From a virus: a stretch of DNA of 33,203 nt. The DNA is taken from the IMG/VR virus record IMGVR_UViG_3300025137_000148, positions 1 to 33,203 of that record; one strand, written 5' to 3'. Numbering within the stretch: the first letter of the stretch is position 1; every line of letters begins with the position of its first letter. The notes under the pieces are model-generated. The model saw only the letters and a program-made list of their open reading frames with translations, was not told the DNA's origin and searched no databases. Shown here piece after piece: positions 1 through 33,203 of this stretch. Made by a program: the position numbers and the translations under genes.

Positions 1-660
1 ATCGCGGCTTTCTTCCTTTTTGGAAACAAAGCGGAAGCACAAGACCTCACTGAAACGGTAAAGTCATGGGATATTGACGTTCAAGTAGGTAACTACGAAA
101 AACGTATTGACGGAGGACTTTACGGAGCGCAAGATGCAGACTATGTGAAAGCATCTTCTGAATTAGGAGTAATTGGTGGATTATCACTAATTGGTTCTGT
201 TGAGCACGTTAACGCTGATGTTGAAGAGTTATATGGTACTATTGGTACTAATCTATCAACATTCATTGGTGATGTAGCTACAGAATTATACATTACTTCT
301 ATTGATGATGTAAATGCTTACGAGGTAGTAAGTTCTTACGATGTAAGCTTATTTGGCATTGATTCCGTTGTTTCATACACAATGGAAGAAAATGGTGCAT
401 CTACAGCAGACATTGCAGTAGGAACAGACTTAGACGTCACAGAGCATTTTGCATTTTCTGTTGGAGTAGAATATGGTCAATCATTTGAATATGATGTAGA
501 TTATACTTATACTTTAGCCACAATTGGTGTTCAAACAACTTTAGATCACCTTACAGTGTATGCTAATTTAAATTATCTAAACAATGATTTAAACACAGCT
601 CAAGGCACTGACGGAGAGTGGAAATCCACTACCGACTTTGGGGTAGCCCTCAATTTCTAA
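1..660 (+). CDS. Secreted beta-barrel-like protein, 5' truncated
   Basis: The frame is open from the first base of the window, so the true start lies upstream and only the C-terminal 219 residues are present. The first residues (IAAFFLFGNKAEA) look like the end of a signal peptide with an AxA signal peptidase I site before QDL. The rest has alternating polar and hydrophobic short strands, many Thr, Val and Tyr residues and few Lys, and it ends VALNF. A terminal Phe after a beta-strand is typical of outer-membrane barrels recognised by the BAM complex. A strong terminator follows 14 bases after the stop, so this gene ends a transcription unit. By inference it is a small phage-encoded outer-membrane or surface protein, perhaps altering the infected cell's surface. 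The exact family is not recognised. An internal GTG at 145 is not a credible start because it would discard the signal peptide. Confidence 0.6.
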   Translation: MAAFFLFGNKAEAQDLTETVKSWDIDVQVGNYEKRIDGGLYGAQDADYVKASSELGVIGGLSLIGSVEHVNADVEELYGTIGTNLSTFIGDVATELYITSIDDVNAYEVVSSYDVSLFGIDSVVSYTMEENGASTADIAVGTDLDVTEHFAFSVGVEYGQSFEYDVDYTYTLATIGVQTTLDHLTVYANLNYLNNDLNTAQGTDGEWKSTTDFGVALNF

Positions 661-1368: not shown

Positions 1369-1405
1369 TTGACTTTTAACTATTATCCCACACTATGGGG
1401 TATAC
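1369..1405 (+). promoter_or_regulatory. Promoter of the replication operon, predicted leaderless
   Basis: TTGACT (1369-1374) is followed by TATGGG (1394-1399), and only six bases separate the latter from the ATG at 1406. The spacer is long (19 bases) and the -10 is weak, but the layout matches the much better promoter at 4912. The predicted transcription start falls on or next to the A of the start codon. Confidence 0.45.
1384..1402 (+). promoter_or_regulatory. Inverted repeat over the -10 of the replication promoter
   Basis: TATCCCA (1384-1390) pairs with TGGGGTA (1396-1402) around the 5-base spacer CACTA, with one G-T pair. It covers the putative -10 and ends just before the start codon. 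It could be a repressor operator. A different inverted repeat sits in the same place at 4929. Confidence 0.4.
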
Positions 1406-3938: not shown

Positions 3939-4923
3939 ATTATCAGCAAGTCGTATAAAAACAGCTCAATCTTGCAGTTGGTTATATTGGTCAAAATATA
4001 AATTAAAGTTGCCAGAGCGAGGCAATGACGGCGCCAGAAGAGGTACCGTGTGCCATAATGTTTTTGAGCATTTATCTAAACAAAAAACCAAAAATCAATT
4101 TAACAAAATAGTTAAAGCTAAAGATCCGTTTGCATCGAAGGCTGTTGAAGATTTAATTATGTCTGATGCTACTGAACTTGGAGTCACGGACGAGGATAAT
4201 ATGAACCTTATCAAACAAATGATTCTCAATGGTTTGAGTTGTAATTTTCACGGAGAAGATTTGGGTGTCCCAGATGAAGCTCATGCAGAATTAGATTTTG
4301 ATATAGAAAAAAATGGTTACCACATTCGTGGGTTTATTGACCAACTGTTTTTATACAAAGAAAAAAAAATCGCTATCATAAGAGATTACAAAACAAGCAA
4401 GAAGATGTTTGAGGGTAAAGAAAAAGATGATAACCTTCAAGACTACATGTACTGTTTAGCTGTAAAACATTTATTCCCAGAATATGTAAACAGAAATGCA
4501 GAATTTTTGTTTTTAAAGTTTGATCTAAAGAAAAAAGGCTTAATGAAAATGAAGCCACTAGACGAGGATGATTTAGAAGGCTTTGAAATGCAGTTAGAAA
4601 ATATACAAAACTATTTAGAAAATTTTAGCGAGTCTGATGCTAAAAGCAGTTTTGCATATGACAAAGGTTTTCCAGACGATGGAACATTTAGCGGCAAATT
4701 GCAGTGTGGGTTTGCCAAAGAAAAAAATCAACTCAAGAAAGACGGAACAAAAATGTGGCATTGTCCGTTTAAGTTTGATTTTTTTTATGTAGAAGTGTTA
4801 AACCACCTAGGAGAACACATAATGTCATCCTTTCAAGATGATTTTGATAAAAGTATTGTTCCAGAAGGCGGTAGCCATTCAATTAAATATTATAAAGGTT
4901 GTCCAAAACACTTGACAAATTAA
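3928..4923 (+). CDS. Cas4/RecB-like PD-(D/E)XK nuclease with four candidate Fe-S cysteines
   Basis: This is a 331-residue nuclease of the RecB/AddB/Cas4 class. The order is: SxSRIKTAQSC with Cys16; RRGTVCH with His43; GFIDQL with Asp138; RDYKTSK with Asp153 and Lys155; then Gln171 and Tyr175 (QDYMY), the QxxxY motif. Three late cysteines (260, 279, 325) together with Cys16 could hold a 4Fe-4S cluster, as in Cas4 and AddB, though their spacing is wider than usual. It sits between primase and polymerase genes and overlaps the primase by 11 bases. A role in processing DNA ends during replication or recombination is likely. There are no CRISPR arrays or cas1/cas2 genes in the window, so an adaptation role is not supported. 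Confidence 0.82.
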   Translation: MEVKLSASRIKTAQSCSWLYWSKYKLKLPERGNDGARRGTVCHNVFEHLSKQKTKNQFNKIVKAKDPFASKAVEDLIMSDATELGVTDEDNMNLIKQMILNGLSCNFHGEDLGVPDEAHAELDFDIEKNGYHIRGFIDQLFLYKEKKIAIIRDYKTSKKMFEGKEKDDNLQDYMYCLAVKHLFPEYVNRNAEFLFLKFDLKKKGLMKMKPLDEDDLEGFEMQLENIQNYLENFSESDAKSSFAYDKGFPDDGTFSGKLQCGFAKEKNQLKKDGTKMWHCPFKFDFFYVEVLNHLGEHIMSSFQDDFDKSIVPEGGSHSIKYYKGCPKHLTN

Positions 4924-4945
4924 AATTATCACCTATATTGGTGAC
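4912..4945 (+). promoter_or_regulatory. Sigma70-type promoter driving the split polymerase genes, predicted leaderless
   Basis: TTGACA (4912-4917), a 16-base spacer and TATATT (4934-4939) form a near-consensus promoter. Only six bases lie between the -10 and the ATG at 4946, so transcription should begin at the start codon. The -35 box lies inside the end of the upstream nuclease gene. Confidence 0.7.
4929..4944 (+). promoter_or_regulatory. Inverted repeat framing the -10 box
   Basis: TCACC (4929-4933) and GGTGA (4940-4944) form a perfect inverted repeat, and the sequence between them is exactly the -10 hexamer TATATT. This is a good candidate operator. A similar placement is seen at 1384-1402. 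Confidence 0.5.
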
Positions 4946-7427: not shown

Positions 7428-9975
7428 AACACCTATGCCAGTTGGCGTTAGACTACCAGAAATTGAGGTAGAACAACGCTTTTATGACGAGTTAAACATA
7501 TCAAATACCTCGTCTAATTATGACTTGTTGCGTGAATTATGTTTGAAAGGTGTGCAACAAAGAGAAATATATAAGCTCAAGAACAAACAAGAGTATTACG
7601 ATCGTGTGAAAATGGAATTAACCGTCTTGCAAGAGCTTGGTTTTATTGATTACATACTTCTAAATTGGGATATTCTTAATTTTTGTCACGAAAACGACAT
7701 ACCAACTGGCCCAGGTAGAGGCTCTGCCGCAGGTTCTTTGGTATTATATTTATTAAAAGTAACAAATATTGATCCAATTCAGTATAATCTCTTTTTTGAG
7801 CGATTTGTATCTAAGAGCAGAGCTAAAAAGACCATTGTTGACGATATAACGTACCTAGACGGCTCTTTGTTGGCTGACGTGGACAATGACATCAGTTACG
7901 ATAGAAGAGCCGAGGTAATCAAATATATCGAAGATAAGCATAAAGGTAAAACATGTAAAATTTTAACTCTCAACACATTGAGTAGCAAATTGTGTGTAAA
8001 GGAGTGCGGTAAGATCGTAGGGGGTTTTTCAGAGGAAGATGTTAATGATATTAGCGCCTCTATTCCAAAGCAGTTCGGTAAGGTATTTAAGTTAAATAAA
8101 GCTTACGATGAAAGCGAAAAACTTAAAAAGTTTTGTGATGACAACCCAAAAGTATTTAAAATAGCCAGAAAACTAGAAGGATTAAATAAGAACACTGGCG
8201 TTCACCCATCGGGGATTGCGATTAGTTTCTATAATATCGACGAGGTAATGCCAATGCAAAAAACAAACGATGGCAATTATGTTTCGGGGTATGATATGAA
8301 TGATGTGGCATCTTTGATGGTTAAGTTCGATATTTTAGGTCTAAGAACTTTATCTGTTGTTTATGATACACTTCAGCAATTAGGTAAAAAGGTAGAAACT
8401 ATAGATGTCGAATCAACAGATATATATGAAAATTTCAAATTCATTGAGGCACCAAAAGGCCTCTTCCAGATTGAAGCGGACACAAACTTTAAGGCAGCTA
8501 GGAAAATTGCTCCCAGGAACCTTGAAGAACTGTCTGCTGTTGTCGCTATTGCTCGTCCTGGTGCTCTTGATTACTTAGACACGTACGCTAGCTATGTAAA
8601 GACTGGTGTTTTCAGTTCTGTGCATGAGTTCTTTGATGATATACTTTCGTATACTGGCGGGATACCTTTATACCAAGAGCAGTTAATGCAAATGGCTGTT
8701 AAAGTTGGTTTTACATTAGATGAAGCGGAACAACTAAGAAGGATTGTCGGCAAAAAGAAAGTAGATTTAATGCCAGCTTGGAAAGCTAAGATTGAAGAAA
8801 AAGTAGAAGAAAAAGATTTACCAAAACAGGTCGGTGACGTTTTATGGAAGGTGGCAGAAGATTCAGCTAATTATTCTTTTAATAAATCACACTCAATTAG
8901 CTACGCTACATTAGCTGCGATAACAACATACTTGAAATTTAATCATTCCAAAGAGTTCTTTTTATCACTGCTTAAAATGACAAAGCATGAACCAGATTCT
9001 CATGCAGAAATTTCTTTAATTAGCCAAGAGCTCTGTCTCTTTGATATGAAGCTTTTGCCACCAGATTTATCCAAGTCTGACGTTGAGTTTTCTATTGAGG
9101 ATAAAAACATTCGTTATGGAATTAACAGTATAAAAGGTGTTTCTGAAAAAACATTAGAAAACTTAGTTGAGTTTAGAAAATCTGAATTACTGCAACAAAC
9201 CAAATATGATGTTTTTGTTTCAGCTAAACAATCTGGTATCAATATTGGTATTGTATCTGGCTTAATACAAGGCGGAATGATGGACTCTTTCTGTAATTTT
9301 GTTGATGGTGTTCCAAACAGATGCCGTCTAGTCTTAGAGGCTCAAGCATTTAACCTTCTGACAGACAGAGAAAAAAGAAACTTTATTAGTTTAGGCGATA
9401 GACTTGATTACGACATTCTTAATTCTATTGCTTACGTTAAAAAAGAAAACTATCCAGGAGATGACTCTAAGCCACTAATGAAAGACTCTAGATTTAAAAC
9501 TTTCAAAAGAGATTACGATAAGTACCGTCAAATTTATGACAAAAATAAAGAGCATTTAGTTTTCGCTAACTGGTACTTTGAACGCAAGTATTTGGGATAT
9601 AGTCATTCTAATGAAATTAAAAAAGTTTTTAAAGAGACTAAAAACTTAGTAAACACATTGGAATTAAAGTCCGTTGATCTTAACGACCGTGTAAAGTTTG
9701 TCGGAGTTGTGACAGATTGTGTGTCAAGAAAAAGTAGGGCTGGAAACAAATATATGATGGTCGAAATACAGGATGATTATGGAAAAATTAAATTTATGAT
9801 GGCCAATAACAGAAGATCTGCCGCGCTAGACATTTACTTAGAGAGAGGTGGTAAAAAACCTAAAGAAGGGCAGATTGTATTTATATATGGCAGTAAGGGT
9901 GATGATATAATATTCGGAGAAAAAATAAATATCCTGGACGAAAAAATCTATACAAGATTATCCGAAATAAAATGA
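7399..9975 (+). CDS. dnaE: Polymerase half of a split DNA polymerase III alpha subunit
   Basis: This is an 858-residue family C polymerase lacking the PHP domain. The palm motif GPGRGSAAGS lies at about 104-113. The catalytic acidic motif ADVDND at 159-164 corresponds to PDFDVDF in E. coli, and MVKFDILGLRTL places the third catalytic Asp at about 311. GVHPSGIAIS (about 267-276) matches the family's GVHxGG motif. SANYSFNKSHSISYA fits the fingers, and a C-terminal OB fold lies near 755-850 (VKFVGVVTDC, then YMMVEIQDDYG). Sequence before residue 60 matches the DnaE segment immediately after PHP, so the break is at the domain border. The first ATG (7399) overlaps the coiled-coil gene; an ATG at 7435 just after that gene's stop is an alternative. 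It ends in an ATGA overlap with the ClpA-like gene. It would be the main replicative polymerase. Confidence 0.92.
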   Translation: MSLANLKSFKTPMPVGVRLPEIEVEQRFYDELNISNTSSNYDLLRELCLKGVQQREIYKLKNKQEYYDRVKMELTVLQELGFIDYILLNWDILNFCHENDIPTGPGRGSAAGSLVLYLLKVTNIDPIQYNLFFERFVSKSRAKKTIVDDITYLDGSLLADVDNDISYDRRAEVIKYIEDKHKGKTCKILTLNTLSSKLCVKECGKIVGGFSEEDVNDISASIPKQFGKVFKLNKAYDESEKLKKFCDDNPKVFKIARKLEGLNKNTGVHPSGIAISFYNIDEVMPMQKTNDGNYVSGYDMNDVASLMVKFDILGLRTLSVVYDTLQQLGKKVETIDVESTDIYENFKFIEAPKGLFQIEADTNFKAARKIAPRNLEELSAVVAIARPGALDYLDTYASYVKTGVFSSVHEFFDDILSYTGGIPLYQEQLMQMAVKVGFTLDEAEQLRRIVGKKKVDLMPAWKAKIEEKVEEKDLPKQVGDVLWKVAEDSANYSFNKSHSISYATLAAITTYLKFNHSKEFFLSLLKMTKHEPDSHAEISLISQELCLFDMKLLPPDLSKSDVEFSIEDKNIRYGINSIKGVSEKTLENLVEFRKSELLQQTKYDVFVSAKQSGINIGIVSGLIQGGMMDSFCNFVDGVPNRCRLVLEAQAFNLLTDREKRNFISLGDRLDYDILNSIAYVKKENYPGDDSKPLMKDSRFKTFKRDYDKYRQIYDKNKEHLVFANWYFERKYLGYSHSNEIKKVFKETKNLVNTLELKSVDLNDRVKFVGVVTDCVSRKSRAGNKYMMVEIQDDYGKIKFMMANNRRSAALDIYLERGGKKPKEGQIVFIYGSKGDDIIFGEKINILDEKIYTRLSEIK

Positions 9976-11350: not shown

Positions 11351-11560
11351 ATGAGAAAAATAAATCGTATAGTAAATACAATGAAAAAAAGCGGAGGTCG
11401 TTTCTTCGGTCTTCGGACAAAAAGTGGAAATAGCTACAACGCTCAATTCGTCAAAGAGACCCCAAAGTATATCGTTATTCACGATAGAAATGCTGGTTGT
11501 CGACGAACATTTGCAAAAGCTAGTTTGACTGGCTTAAAAATGGGTACAGTTAGTATCTAA
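11351..11560 (+). CDS. Small basic phage protein of unknown function
   Basis: This is a 69-residue, strongly basic protein starting three bases after the ClpA-like gene and closing the operon before a terminator. A beta-rich layout is suggested by RFFGLRTKSGNSYNAQF, then KYIVIHDRN, then a C-terminal GLKMGTVSI, as in small SH3-like or nucleic-acid-binding folds. No catalytic motif, signal peptide or membrane segment is present. It may bind nucleic acid or partner with the unfoldase, but nothing in the sequence proves either. Confidence 0.65.
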   Translation: MRKINRIVNTMKKSGGRFFGLRTKSGNSYNAQFVKETPKYIVIHDRNAGCRRTFAKASLTGLKMGTVSI

Positions 11561-11565
11561 TTACG

Positions 11566-11591
11566 AAGGTGGTAGAAATACCACCTTTTTT
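11566..11591 (+). terminator. Rho-independent terminator closing the replication operon
   Basis: A perfect 9-bp stem, AAGGTGGTA (11566-11574) with TACCACCTT (11579-11587), carries a GAAA tetraloop and is followed by a T run. It starts six bases after the stop of the small basic protein. Confidence 0.95.
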
Positions 11592-11594
11592 ATT

Positions 11595-11606
11595 TATAAT
11601 ATACTT
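11595..11606 (+). promoter_or_regulatory. -10 box next to a start codon, predicted leaderless promoter
   Basis: TATAAT (11595-11600) lies six bases before the ATG at 11607 and immediately after the terminator T run. There is no space for a Shine-Dalgarno in a new transcript. No good -35 is visible because the terminator hairpin occupies that region, so the promoter may be weak or need a phage factor. Confidence 0.5.
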
Positions 11607-12689
11607 ATGCTTGAAGAAGATTTAAATCCAAATGTAAATTTTTCTGAAATATTGAAAGGGCGTTTAATAACTAGCACTTTTGATTTTACCATGAGTGATG
11701 TAGAAAAATCTTTTCTAAAGGACATATTCGAGAAAAACCCCAAAATAAAACATGAATTTAAAAAAATAGATTCAATAGAGCTTTTAGACAGAAATTTCTT
11801 TTATGATATTTACAGGTTTAAATGCGAGGGGAAAGGATATTGTTTAAAACTTGGAGACAGACACGACAATTACATATTTAAAAGAGAGTATTCTTTTTTA
11901 GACAAAATCAAAGAAAAAAAAATATCGCCAAGACCCATATTGAATGGAAGGGGTAAAGATTATTCGTACTTAATTACCACCTATGAATTTAGCGAATCAA
12001 TAAAACAATTAGGTATATCGTTTTTGATATCTAATATAAAACTTTTTTCTAAGACTTTAAAAGATATTCATGAATCTTCTAAGACGGAATCAAGCGAAAA
12101 AGAAATGTTCATTGATATGTATATTTCAATGGGGGCTTTCAATGAAATTTTAGATCAAAAACAATTAAATGCTTTAAGATCTTTTGGGAATTTTGAAAAA
12201 TGCGAGCAGATACTAAAGGGACTAGAAGACACAATAAAGATTCAAGTTCCATCAATGGTAGAGCAGGATCCCTGCATATGCCACATGAACTTAACGGAAT
12301 CAAATATACTGTATAGAGGTGGGTTATTTAAATTATGTAATTTTCATAAATCTTTTAATCTTAACCCGCTTTGGGATTTAGCAATGACCTCTTTAAATCT
12401 TGGGTTTAACAGTCACCCCAAATTAGAAGAAAAATTTATTAAGCATTACTCCAAAGAAAACATGCATCATATAAAAAACATCTTACCAGCATATAAAGAC
12501 GTTTGTTATAAATTAATTTTGTATGAAATTATATGCGTTTACTTTTATAAAATAATCATTACAAAAGAAGATAGATCTCTTGAAAGTTTGTTCTTTGCGT
12601 ATGAAACTATTAGGCCATTGATATTAAATGAATTTCCAATGTATACAAAGATATTAGACCCAATGTTCGGCGATTTTAATAAAATTTAA
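11607..12689 (+). CDS. APH/choline-kinase-fold pseudokinase
   Basis: This is a 360-residue protein with the order of motifs of aminoglycoside phosphotransferase-like kinases. A nucleotide-binding Lys lies in YCLKLGD (Lys81), a helix Glu in FKREYSFL (Glu94) and a hinge strand YLITTYEF (121-128). The catalytic loop HMNLTESNIL (226-235), the metal motif NFH (245-247) and PLWDLA (254-259) follow. Where active enzymes have HxD and D(F/x)(G/E), this protein has HMN and NFH, so both the catalytic and the metal-binding Asp are Asn. It is therefore probably catalytically dead or strongly altered, perhaps binding a nucleotide, sugar or protein. It overlaps the downstream transferase at TAATG, suggesting coupled translation and a shared job. 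Confidence 0.68.
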   Translation: MLEEDLNPNVNFSEILKGRLITSTFDFTMSDVEKSFLKDIFEKNPKIKHEFKKIDSIELLDRNFFYDIYRFKCEGKGYCLKLGDRHDNYIFKREYSFLDKIKEKKISPRPILNGRGKDYSYLITTYEFSESIKQLGISFLISNIKLFSKTLKDIHESSKTESSEKEMFIDMYISMGAFNEILDQKQLNALRSFGNFEKCEQILKGLEDTIKIQVPSMVEQDPCICHMNLTESNILYRGGLFKLCNFHKSFNLNPLWDLAMTSLNLGFNSHPKLEEKFIKHYSKENMHHIKNILPAYKDVCYKLILYEIICVYFYKIIITKEDRSLESLFFAYETIRPLILNEFPMYTKILDPMFGDFNKI

Positions 12690-13453
12690 TGAAATTATTT
12701 TTTGACCATATTTGTGGTAAACAAGCAGATACTGACTTCATACACACTTTAGTCAGTGCCACAGTAAATAAAGAAGAAGAACAAGAAGCTTTAGATAACG
12801 GCTGGTGCCCATCTAATATATGGTACAAACAAGATACAAATTTTGTTAAACAAAATAAAATCATTTGGTATCAAAGCAGACAAACTCGACTAGATTTAAG
12901 CAAGTACACGGAAACCAAGAACGAAAAAAAAGCTTGGAAAAAAATCGCCAAGGGGAATGTTAAAACAGAAATAACTACTGACCCAGATTTTAAAAAATTA
13001 TATAAAATTTATAAAAACTATGTTTGTTATAAAAAATTTTCTTCAGTATTGTCTCAAGAAGAGTTTATTGAAGTTTACGAAAAAGGAAATCACGTTTTTT
13101 TAATTTATGGAGACGTCGCTTTCAGTGTCGTGCAAAAAGTAGGAAAAAGCTTATTAGCTTATCAATTTTGCTGGGGTTATGAAGATAAAGTATTAGGTTT
13201 AGGCAGATTTTCTACATATAAAGAAATAAGTTTAGCTAAAGACTTAGGCTTAAAATATTTATATCTTGGGCCAAGTTACGAAAGCCATGGAAGGTACAAA
13301 AGCTCATTTCCAGGATTTGAGTTTTGGACAGGTAGAAAATGGTGCTCTGATGAATCAAAATACTTTGACTTATTGGATCAAGATGAGAAAATAATTTCCG
13401 TTGAAGATTTAATTGGTTCTTACAATTCATTTTTTGATTCTTTTTCAGTATAA
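12689..13453 (+). CDS. Aminoacyl-tRNA-protein transferase-like protein (Ate1/Bpt type)
   Basis: This is a 254-residue protein resembling leucyl/arginyl-tRNA-protein transferases, which add Leu or Arg to exposed N-terminal acidic residues and create N-degrons. The N-terminal part has WYQSRQTRLDL (about 60-70), comparable to the RxxRxxL-type segment before the conserved basic helix. The C-terminal GNAT-like half has FSTYKEISLAKDLGLKYLYL, then GPSYESHGRYKSSFPGFEFW and GRKW, the family's LGTY...YLYLGYWI...YK.xFxPxE...W signature. The length is close to bacterial Bpt (about 230-250). The start overlaps the pseudokinase stop. Its last 34 bases overlap the convergent gene on the other strand. Whether it uses charged tRNA is unproven; a general GNAT acyltransferase is the alternative. 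Confidence 0.6.
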   Translation: MKLFFDHICGKQADTDFIHTLVSATVNKEEEQEALDNGWCPSNIWYKQDTNFVKQNKIIWYQSRQTRLDLSKYTETKNEKKAWKKIAKGNVKTEITTDPDFKKLYKIYKNYVCYKKFSSVLSQEEFIEVYEKGNHVFLIYGDVAFSVVQKVGKSLLAYQFCWGYEDKVLGLGRFSTYKEISLAKDLGLKYLYLGPSYESHGRYKSSFPGFEFWTGRKWCSDESKYFDLLDQDEKIISVEDLIGSYNSFFDSFSV

Positions 13454-14076
13454 TCTAAATCCTTAAACTCTGTCATAAAAGAGTTGTCGGTATACTTGAC
13501 TCTCTTATTTTCTACACTGTAAAAATTTTGATCTATTTCGTACCCAGGATTTTTAGTTAAAGGCTCTTCTACCCAAGCGTCATCATGCCATACAATTCTA
13601 TTGTTGGGGTATGCGTAAAAGTTTCCATTTTCCATTTTAAACATATGGGCGCATTTGTGTTCTGGATGTTCAGAAAAATTTGTATCTAAAATTGCTTTGT
13701 TTTCCCAGCCCCAATCTATTGTAAACATATATTCTCCCCATTCTCTTTTGTTTGAAGGGGTTATAAGGACACCTCTAAGACCTTTAAGTCTAGACCTCAC
13801 CCCTACATCAACATAGGGCGAAAAACAGTCCCAGTACATAGCTTCTTCTAATGGTACTGGGTCACACTCTTTCCAACATAGCGCTGTAATCGGTCTTCTA
13901 GTCCAGTTCACTCCATTGTCTAAATAACACTCAAACAATGGCACTCTTTTTTCCATTGATGTAACTGAATGAACATCACACATTGTGTATTCTTCGTGTC
14001 CTTTTTTGTGGTTATATAAATATTCGTTTCTAATGAAACATGTAAATGTTGGTAAGTTGTGAGTTAAATAAGGCAT
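13420..14076 (-). CDS. Conserved-looking phage protein of unknown function
   Basis: This is a 218-residue soluble protein, rich in Trp and Cys, with segments that look strongly constrained. Examples are LFECYLDNGVNWTRRPITAL, then YWDCFSPYVDVGVRSRLKGL and HKCAHMFKMENGNFYAYPNN. No catalytic motif is recognised, and no signal peptide or membrane segment is present. The start at 14076 (MPYLTHNLP) is preferred; the upstream ATG at 14139 would overlap the divergent gene and add a low-complexity leader. It is a lone leftward gene between two rightward blocks, with its own AGTGTAA element upstream and a 34-base tail-to-tail overlap with the transferase gene. Confidence 0.7.
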   Translation of the reverse strand: MPYLTHNLPTFTCFIRNEYLYNHKKGHEEYTMCDVHSVTSMEKRVPLFECYLDNGVNWTRRPITALCWKECDPVPLEEAMYWDCFSPYVDVGVRSRLKGLRGVLITPSNKREWGEYMFTIDWGWENKAILDTNFSEHPEHKCAHMFKMENGNFYAYPNNRIVWHDDAWVEEPLTKNPGYEIDQNFYSVENKRVKYTDNSFMTEFKDLDYTEKESKNEL

Positions 14077-31455: not shown

Positions 31456-31465
31456 ATATTACACC
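31456..31465 (-). promoter_or_regulatory. GGTGTAATAT element before the tail operon
   Basis: GGTGTAATAT on the minus strand begins 15 bases before the gpL start codon, in a 20-base gap between two divergent genes. It matches the AGTGTAA family at all but the first base and is the likely promoter of the L-K-I-I-J set. Confidence 0.45.
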
Positions 31466-31470
31466 GAAAA

Positions 31471-31980
31471 ATGAAAAAATATAATAATTTAAAAAATGCT
31501 TCGTACAGAGTATATAAAAAAGAAGATTTCTCCGCAATACTTAAAATTTTTATAGAATTTCAGAAAGAATCTAAAATTGGTAGCTTTTATAACATAACCA
31601 AAGGACATAGCGACAACTTCATAACTATGTATTTATTTGAAGAATTGAAAAAACTAACAAAAAATTGCAAACACAATTATGTCGGAATAGACAACGATAC
31701 TGGTGAAATCTTTGGTTTTGCCTGCTTGACGGAAGATGTTTTCGCAAAAAATTCTTTAGAGCTACAATTAGCGTTTAAACACCCTAAATACATTTTTAAC
31801 AGACAAATGAAATATTTAATGCTTTTGCTTTTTAAAAAAATAAAAAAAGACAGAAAAGTATTCGCGGTTTTGGGGCAGAGAGAAAAATTTGAAAAATATT
31901 TTAAGTTTATTAAGCGTATTTTTAAGGTAAAAGTCTACAACAAAGACAGTTTAGGCAAAATTTATATAGAATTTTTATAG
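31471..31980 (+). CDS. GNAT-like acetyltransferase domain protein
   Basis: This is a 169-residue, strongly basic protein. YRVYKKEDFSAILKIFIEFQ near the N-terminus and NYVGIDNDTGEIFGFACLTE in the middle fit the first strand-helix and the central beta-hairpin of GNAT folds. The acyl-CoA-binding Q/RxxGxG/A loop is not clear. SLELQLAFKHP and a C-terminal basic helix-rich part follow. It is divergent from the tail operon with only 20 bases between the starts, and the next gene begins one base after its stop. The substrate is unknown; a role in modifying a protein during infection is conceivable. Confidence 0.5.
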   Translation: MKKYNNLKNASYRVYKKEDFSAILKIFIEFQKESKIGSFYNITKGHSDNFITMYLFEELKKLTKNCKHNYVGIDNDTGEIFGFACLTEDVFAKNSLELQLAFKHPKYIFNRQMKYLMLLLFKKIKKDRKVFAVLGQREKFEKYFKFIKRIFKVKVYNKDSLGKIYIEFL

Positions 31981-31981
31981 T

Positions 31982-32518
31982 ATGAAAGATGTTTACAAAA
32001 AATTAGATTCAGTTTTAGATTCCTTCGAGCATGATTTAATCGAAAGATGCGAATATGTTCCTCATAAATATGATATTGAAGATAAATTGTCGGCAGATAA
32101 TTTGTTTAAAATACAGAAAAATGGCAATCTAGACAAAGCCAATTCCATAGACGACAACGACAATAGATTAATTTTAGACCTTTCATACCTATATGGTATA
32201 GATTTTAAAGGTTTAGTTGAGAAAGAAACAGGTATTAAAAGAAAATACTCTGGTTTTTTCTGGTATCCTTGCGACGCTTTTTGTGGTTGGCACACAAACA
32301 ACAATGCAGAGGGAGAAAGAATGTATTTTACTTGGGCTGCCGAAAGCAATAAAAGTTTTTTTAGGTATCAAGACCCAGACACAAAAGAAATTATAACAGA
32401 TTGGGACAAAAAAGGCTGGCAATATAGAAAATTTAATGTTTCTAGGTCTAAATCGTATTGGCATTGTGTCGGATCTAAAACAAATAGAATAAGCATAGGT
32501 TTGAGACTTGACAAATAA
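31982..32518 (+). CDS. Possible 2OG-Fe(II) oxygenase-like/cupin-fold protein
   Basis: This is a 178-residue protein. The second half reads FFWYPCDAFCGWHTNNNAEG, then RMYFTWAAESNKSFFRYQDP, and ends KSYWHCVGSKTNRISIGLRL. A 'GWHT(N/D)' motif, a later WH and a terminal R-x-S-I-G-L-R strand fit the double-stranded beta-helix of 2OG-Fe(II) enzymes, whose iron ligands are HxD...H with a downstream Arg for 2-oxoglutarate. Here the facial triad would read HTN...H, so activity is uncertain. The N-terminal 80 residues are not recognised. It follows the GNAT-like gene by one base and is probably co-transcribed. Confidence 0.45.
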   Translation: MKDVYKKLDSVLDSFEHDLIERCEYVPHKYDIEDKLSADNLFKIQKNGNLDKANSIDDNDNRLILDLSYLYGIDFKGLVEKETGIKRKYSGFFWYPCDAFCGWHTNNNAEGERMYFTWAAESNKSFFRYQDPDTKEIITDWDKKGWQYRKFNVSRSKSYWHCVGSKTNRISIGLRLDK

Positions 32519-32525
32519 GCATGTT

Positions 32526-32535
32526 AGTGTTAAAA
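32526..32535 (+). promoter_or_regulatory. AGTGTTAAAA element before the 32544 gene
   Basis: AGTGTTAAAA, a variant of the AGTGTAA family with one extra T, begins 18 bases before the ATG at 32544 in a 25-base gap. Confidence 0.3.
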
Positions 32536-32543
32536 AATAAGTA

Positions 32544-32726
32544 ATGAGTAAATGGACAGAAAAACAAACTGGAGCTTTGTGGAAAAAAAACACTGGCAAG
32601 ACTAAATATTTATCTGGATATGTCGAAATTGAGGGTATTCAACACAAAGTAGTTATCTTCCCCAACAAATTCAAACAAGAAAATAAACACCCAGAATTTA
32701 TTATATACCATCCGTTCGAAAAATAG
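32544..32726 (+). CDS. Small phage protein, DUF736-like pattern
   Basis: This is a 60-residue basic protein. TGALWKKNTGKTKYLSGYVE, then HKVVIFPNKFKQENKHPEFI, form a compact beta layout with a 'GxLW...YLSGxVE...F.N....N.PxF.IY' rhythm that recalls DUF736-type small proteins. No catalytic residues, signal peptide or membrane segment are apparent, and the function is unknown. It has its own AGTGTTAAAA element and lies at the boundary between accessory and structural genes. Confidence 0.6.
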   Translation: MSKWTEKQTGALWKKNTGKTKYLSGYVEIEGIQHKVVIFPNKFKQENKHPEFIIYHPFEK

Positions 32727-32734
32727 TGTAAATA
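32725..32734 (+). promoter_or_regulatory. AGTGTAAATA element before the 32742 gene
   Basis: AGTGTAAATA is identical to the element at 1104 and begins 17 bases before the ATG at 32742. It overlaps the stop codon of the upstream gene by two bases. Confidence 0.45.
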
Positions 32735-32741
32735 TGCCTAT

Positions 32742-33122
32742 ATGGCAGAAAATCCTCATTTAATAGAAAAGGAAATCAAAGGAACTTTTGATACTGGGTA
32801 TTTAGCTACAGGTTTTGATGCGAGAATAGGCGCAATATTGGATGATTTTCCAATTACGCAAGACTCATTTACGTCGACTTTAAATAGTCAACATTTCCTA
32901 ACTTTTCAAAAAGTCATAAGGGAACTTAATATGAAATTAGATTCCTATGGCTTGACTCAATTTATCAAAGACCCTCTTGGAGAGGGCTTCATACCTAAAA
33001 CACTTACTGGGTTCTTTAGTGAGGCGCCTACAATAGGTAGTGATGATTTCTTGCAATTACAAGATGGATCTTTCTTGGTACAACAAAATTCCTCAAAACT
33101 AGTCATAGTACCAGACAATTAA
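32742..33122 (+). CDS. Unknown protein, probable virion-associated
   Basis: This is a 126-residue acidic protein with no recognised motif, signal peptide or membrane segment. Segments such as GFDARIGAILDDFPITQDSF and LTGFFSEAPTIGSDDFLQLQ, plus a beta-rich end (GSFLVQQNSSKLVIVPDN), are compatible with a small head or tail component. It is flanked by AGTGTAA elements on both sides and followed by what looks like a structural gene. The function is inferred from location only. Confidence 0.6.
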   Translation: MAENPHLIEKEIKGTFDTGYLATGFDARIGAILDDFPITQDSFTSTLNSQHFLTFQKVIRELNMKLDSYGLTQFIKDPLGEGFIPKTLTGFFSEAPTIGSDDFLQLQDGSFLVQQNSSKLVIVPDN

Positions 33123-33131
33123 GTGTAACTA
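33122..33131 (+). promoter_or_regulatory. AGTGTAACTA element before the last gene
   Basis: AGTGTAACTA begins 16 bases before the ATG at 33138, overlapping the preceding stop codon by one base. Confidence 0.4.
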
Positions 33132-33137
33132 AATACA

Positions 33138-33203
33138 ATGGCCGACAAAAAAATATCAGAATTAACTAAATTAAGTAGTAACGACTTGGATCACAGAAAT
33201 GAT
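33138..33203 (+). CDS. Structural protein N-terminus, 3' truncated
   Basis: Only 22 codons are present before the window ends. The opening MADKKISELTKLSSNDL follows the 'K/xISELTxLxxxDL' pattern common at the N-terminus of phage tail-fibre and other structural proteins. The rest of the gene lies outside the window, so nothing more can be said. Confidence 0.55.
   Translation, partial: MADKKISELTKLSSNDLDHRND

Follow-up and report, generated by a model that had tools for sequence, protein, structure and literature searches.

A short sequence element with the consensus (A/W)GTGTAAWWW was found at a nearly fixed distance before genes of a large uncultured phage lineage. It probably acts as a single-element late promoter, used by the host RNA polymerase together with a phage-encoded sigma factor, for which a protein of 186 aa is the best candidate. 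The window, i.e. the whole stretch of DNA from which the analysis started, comprises positions 1 to 33,203 of the record IMGVR_UViG_3300025137_000148.

Occurrence and conservation of the element

Over the whole window, raw motif counts correspond to chance, with AGTGTAA observed 6 times against 5.69 expected and 72 near-matches to the 10-mer against 73 expected. Counted by position, four genes of the window carry the element where 0.06 are expected, and a fifth is lost to the window end. The preliminary description of this DNA had reported an identical element before two genes and variants before three others, and all five were located. AGTGTAAATA is found on the plus strand at 1104-1113, upstream of gene 1119-1358 (79 aa; 15 nt from the ATG, G of GTGTAA at 14 nt), and again at 32725-32734, upstream of gene 32742-33122 (126 aa; 17 nt from the ATG, G at 16 nt). 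The variant AGTGTAACTA (33122-33131, plus strand) has its G 15 nt before ATG 33138. On the minus strand, GGTGTAATAT (31465-31456) lies 14 nt before ATG 31450 of a gpL-like minor tail protein and AGTGTAATAT (23350-23341) 18 nt before ATG 23331 of a large J-like protein (J2). GTGTAA also precedes orthologue-like genes of 32742 in four relatives (L010, L012, G008 and G020); the ORF starting at 33138 is complete in L003, with 929 aa, and has the same element in L010. The J2 element is absent from the more distant orthologues compared.

A less exact variant had been proposed for gene 13420-14076 on the minus strand. Its element AGTGTAAAAT (14112-14103) does contain an exact AGTGTAA (14112-14106) but lies 35 nt from ATG 14076; in the relative L032 the element of the counterpart gene is only 16 nt from the ATG. 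A further AGTGTAA (29514-29508, minus strand) is intragenic and far from every start. The overlap with the preceding stop codon, described as frequent, is present at 1119, 32742, 33138 and J2 but is not general, the gpL gene being divergent from its upstream neighbour.

With the gpL-like gene as query, 40 relatives were collected from viral contigs and upstream regions were examined at 35 loci. GTGTAA was present at -14/-15 from the ATG in 35/35 orthologues examined (58-100% amino acid identity), and it is invariant while the divergent upstream neighbour gene varies. Among 319 non-redundant upstream regions of these loci, it was the most enriched hexamer (38 versus 0.9). In one locus (L004, minus-strand gene near 4433 of the reversed locus), the element and the first bases of one gene have become attached to another gene downstream, so that the element is 22 nt from the ATG of the latter; either promoters were swapped naturally or the assembly joined them.

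The helicase and DnaE proteins as queries led to the large uncultured lineage. One contig of 84,764 bp (G007) belongs to the same virus, with 99.985% identity over 26,666 bp, so that window positions 1-26666 equal G007 58099-84764. The full-genome test of motif frequency 5' of genes came out in favour of the element, which in G007 is positioned before 11 genes against 0.21 expected. In seven core records GTGTAA stands at -16 to -13 of 79/732 starts, with a null mean of 0.79 and a maximum of 4 in 300 first-order Markov resamplings; these gene starts come from a simple ORF caller and the contigs are incomplete. GTGTAA was the top hexamer at -22 to -7 of starts in 8 of the 11 large records (G007, G008, G009, G010, G012, G014, G015 and G020), and the more distant G016 and G017 use GTGTAT as well. 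GTGTA[A/T] at -16 to -13 exceeded expectation in the window and in each of 16 records, with a single site only in G022. Microcystis phage MaeS, which gave remote helicase and terminase matches, lacks the element and both sigma proteins described below, and uses Shine-Dalgarno sequences.

The raw window counts would agree with chance, or with the element being a by-product of stop codons that overlap it (TAAGTGTAA). This reading was refuted by the enrichment at starts in the core records and by the first rank of GTGTAA among hexamers in most records, as well as by the gpL loci, where the element is retained before divergent genes without a stop codon; its probability is negligible.

Proposed promoter geometry and gene classes

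An alignment of 89 non-redundant sites on GTGTAA showed A/T directly 5' of the element and A/T 3' of it, G being nearly excluded at the next position. No further conserved position was present up to 50 nt upstream in these sites, hence there is no -35 box. The spacing is sharp, with 50/102 sites at -14. These genomes also show a TTGAC maximum precisely at -35 relative to the ATG (29 genes at this position against a background of about 2), with TATAAT located at -11/-12, a placement indicating that the sigma70-type promoters of the lineage would start transcription at the ATG. Early genes thus have the layout of leaderless genes, with the -10 box a few nt from the ATG and no Shine-Dalgarno sequence in between, and late genes have GTGTAA at -14; both promoter classes appear to be leaderless. 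The earlier proposal that transcription would start near the ATG is supported by this geometry in 16 large related contigs. In bacterial leaderless promoters, likewise, the -10 box is set so that the transcription start coincides with the ATG. Here, by comparison, an early sigma70-type class and a late phage-specific class both with this geometry seem to be combined in one phage.

When both classes are placed on a shared start point, GTGTAA covers the -10 position, and TGTAAW differs from TATAAT by G for A at -11, a base at which sigma70 needs A. The gene at 11607 fits this arrangement. In its relatives a terminator is directly followed by GTGTAATATA, and the virus of the window has TATAATATA at almost this position, shifted by one base towards the ATG (window 11560-11607: terminator GGTGGTAGAAATACCACCTTTTTT, then TATAATATACTT-ATG). 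This suggests that the element and the -10 box are equivalent in position.

The resemblance of TGTAAW to a -10 box could also mean that the promoter is read by a host sigma factor, primary or alternative, without any phage sigma; an unusual host sigma is conceivable. We consider this improbable in view of the missing -35 box and the G at -11. In addition, the element marks a separate gene class and is distributed throughout the lineage together with two phage sigma factors. A host assignment via the helicase in genome contigs gave only four contigs, from metagenome-assembled bins of conflicting taxa, and was not trusted.

The sharp spacing and the absence of Shine-Dalgarno sequences from the genes with the element at -14 would also fit an element of translation initiation, replacing the Shine-Dalgarno sequence in the mRNA at a fixed distance from the AUG. 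This was judged very improbable. Elements are also found 22-40 nt upstream, and for this far class a Shine-Dalgarno-like sequence occupies the gap in 16/46 cases against 202/1607 genes without element, a comparison of the far class with other genes only, since one between close and far elements would be biased by the lack of room for a Shine-Dalgarno sequence behind close elements. Replication genes, which have the same needs in translation, do not use the element, and the sigma70 boxes are equally anchored to the ATG. Furthermore, three orthologues of gene 11607 have an intrinsic terminator directly abutting the element, where a fresh transcript would be expected to start; terminators before elements overall showed no significant enrichment (6/101 versus 26/254). 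From the conservation and placement of the element we strongly infer that it is a promoter.

The genes behind the two promoter types fall into different classes. The element precedes gpL (5/5), DUF5824 (11/11), portal-like (8/9) and tape measure (6/9) genes, the family of G007 22064 (8/10) and that of gene 1119 (G007 59217), where GTGTA[A/T] is kept in 8/12 orthologues. Non-structural genes, namely RNR and PhoH, are also among the bearers, and the designation of the whole set as late is drawn from gene content. Sigma70-type promoters are found in the families of G007 56546 (10/15) and the helicase (9/16), and at the head of the sigma operon (4/6). Among 46 distinct helicase upstream regions, TTGAC at -40 to -33 was present in 29 and GTGTA[A/T] in one. 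In the window, the replicative helicase gene has TTGACT-16-CACTAT at 1369-1396 (plus strand), 9 nt before ATG 1406. TTGACA-16-TATATT at 4912-4939 (plus strand) ends 6 nt before ATG 4946, again in leaderless geometry; the 231-aa family of this gene (G007 63044) has a sigma70-type promoter in 15/16 orthologues, three of which show it only when an alternative start is assumed. The gene at 32544, for which AGTGTTAAAA had been listed as a variant of the element, was wrongly placed: it has TTGACA-17-TAAAAA at 32508-32536 (plus strand), ending 7 nt before the ATG, and its G010 orthologue is likewise of the sigma70 type. Apart from this gene, both the late-promoter reading and the distinction from the TTGACA promoters that serve replication genes, proposed from the window, gained support from the comparison of the 16 large related contigs.

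RNR beta carries the element in 9/14 and a sigma70-type promoter in 6/14 cases, often both and overlapping. Such overlapping TTGAC and GTGTAA sequences are located at G007 39467, G008 64615, G009 40508, G010 49586 and G022 76221, and this gene likely has a composite early-plus-late promoter.

Some further features were observed along these genomes. Just 5' of the element of the portal-like gene, G007 contains AACTTTTAA / AGTTAACTTT repeats (about 12080-12128). They recur at the homologous place in G009, G010, G011, G012, G016 and G019, in several of them right after terL, and they could possibly represent a packaging (pac/cos) or activator site. Between the late and the replication genes, G007 43442-56574 holds a long gene run which by eye appears to encode sugar/nucleotide-sugar and surface-glycan biosynthesis. 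In the window, a 133-aa protein (703-1104) resembles HNH/homing endonucleases (phrog_559, E 3e-15), and a 254-aa protein (12689-13453) matches the C-terminal domain of arginine-tRNA-protein transferase (PF04377, 4.5e-6), which is unusual in a phage. A 236-aa protein (G007 58048-58758, before/within window 145-660) has an apparent signal peptide, is beta-barrel-like by eye and is followed by a terminator; it is possibly a phage-carried outer-membrane protein.

Two phage sigma-like proteins

The search for a phage sigma-like factor, suggested in the preliminary description, yielded two proteins. The 186-aa protein (G007 37798-38358, minus strand) matched phrog_351, RNA polymerase sigma factor (E 7e-11), and showed a weak alignment with primary sigma factors in PDB and a Sigma70_r2 match under the curated cut-off. 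Its AlphaFold model is of moderate quality (mean pLDDT 76, pTM 0.45), and the modelled fold matched sigma factors in PDB (sigma32, E 6e-5) and sigmas among viral models. With both a region 2 and a sigma fold found, the protein is predicted to be a sigma70-family factor. It has a region-4-like C-terminus, although the element lacks a -35 box. Its gene directly follows that of a dNMP kinase within a short operon, the head of which has a sigma70-type promoter in 5/13 records by strict match and the GTGTAA element in none.

The second protein, of 223 aa, is ECF-like and is encoded in the terminase cluster, three genes upstream of terL (G007 7622-8293). It contains sigma region 2 together with an HTH at the C-terminus (TIGR02937 sigma70-ECF, 2e-7; Sigma70_r2, 5e-5). 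Its weak match to phrog_1740 (E 9e-4 and 2e-3), the PHROG of phiEco32 gp36, makes it a serious rival as reader of the element, the promoters of gp36 being single elements too, and its gene is present in 8/8 records with a complete cluster. Reading of the promoter by this protein is nevertheless unlikely. The phrog match is limited to region 2 and the PDB fold match is weak (E 0.013). Moreover, its gene belongs to the late cluster, behind GTGTAA-type promoters in 7/8 records and behind a sigma70-type promoter in 0/8, and another factor must then initiate late transcription. Both sigma factors were found wherever the respective gene neighbourhood is complete, their absences tracking contig incompleteness, and co-occurrence therefore decides nothing between them. 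It is the order of expression that favours the 186-aa protein as the best candidate reader, with moderate confidence. A search with PF00940 for a single-subunit phage RNA polymerase gave no match, as did its control, and is hence uninformative.

With the 186-aa protein as reader, the infection would proceed as follows. Host sigma70 would transcribe the early genes from ATG-anchored TTGAC/TATAAT promoters, and one early operon would yield the 186-aa sigma. This factor would then redirect the host core RNA polymerase to the GTGTAA promoters of late genes, among them those for tail, portal-like and tape-measure proteins. As the element takes the -10 position without a -35, transcription would mostly start on the ATG or a few bases away from it, and most late mRNAs would be leaderless or nearly so.

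Relation to known systems and implications

The closest working analogue is phiEco32, with which the proposed system shares a single element without -35 and a phage sigma. The phiEco32 factor gp36 uses promoters of the form tAATGTAtA, which lack a -35, start 6-8 bp downstream and serve middle/late genes with the host core enzyme (PMC8948821). In phiEco32 a dNMP kinase gene lies two genes from gp36, and here it lies directly 5' of the 186-aa sigma. The systems differ in sequence (GTGTAAWWW here) and in the start point, predicted at the ATG for most genes here; the present lineage, in addition, consists of tailed phages with lambda-like tail-tip genes. Profile comparison to phiEco32 gp36 gave no homology for either the 186-aa or the 223-aa sigma, although the latter has the weak match to the gp36 PHROG given above. 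The late promoters of phage 7-11 (GTAAtg-16-aCTA), served by sigma gp47 with a region 4 (PMC8948821), are bipartite, while the GTGTAA element stands alone.

The late promoters of T4 (TATAAATA, gp55) have in common with the element a single -10-like sequence, the absence of a -35 and the late structural genes behind them. The resemblance to TATAAATA noted earlier holds for the position, TGTAAWWW being equally distant from the predicted start point, and for part of the sequence; the second base here is G instead of A, and an extra G is conserved upstream. T4-type late transcription depends on gp55, gp33 and gp45, with the gp45 sliding clamp as activator. T4 gp55 (185 aa) is close in size to the 186-aa sigma, but hhalign of the latter's profile against gp55 (NP_049679.1) gave a probability of 0.6%, and the two belong to different PHROGs (phrog_234 and phrog_351, respectively). 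The gp45-type clamp PF09116, the only clamp family searched, was absent from six large records, which are possibly incomplete. Kinship with the T4 late system is thus not supported by these comparisons.

Phage transcripts are often leaderless, according to a passing statement (PMC5312081), so leaderlessness alone is not new. In the open-access literature neither this element nor a phage with both promoter classes anchored at the ATG was found reported, which counts as weak evidence. We lean slightly towards a wider picture, in which the lineage would depend largely on leaderless messages. It would comprise an early ATG-anchored sigma70 class, a late ATG-anchored single-element class and a divergent, non-gp55 sigma accepting G at -11, and the ECF-like sigma might add a further layer or amplifier.

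The signal found 5' of many structural genes across this large, never-cultured phage group very probably turns on their expression late in the infection. In uncultured phages, late promoters can seldom be read from sequence. The element is very sharp, so that sequence alone could serve to mark late genes across the contigs of this large and mostly aquatic group of phages, and the division into sigma70 and GTGTAA promoters would indicate the timing of many unnamed genes. The system may also offer a natural case in which substitution of the critical base at -11 separates phage from host transcription, in a phage group whose gene expression is seemingly built on leaderless mRNA.
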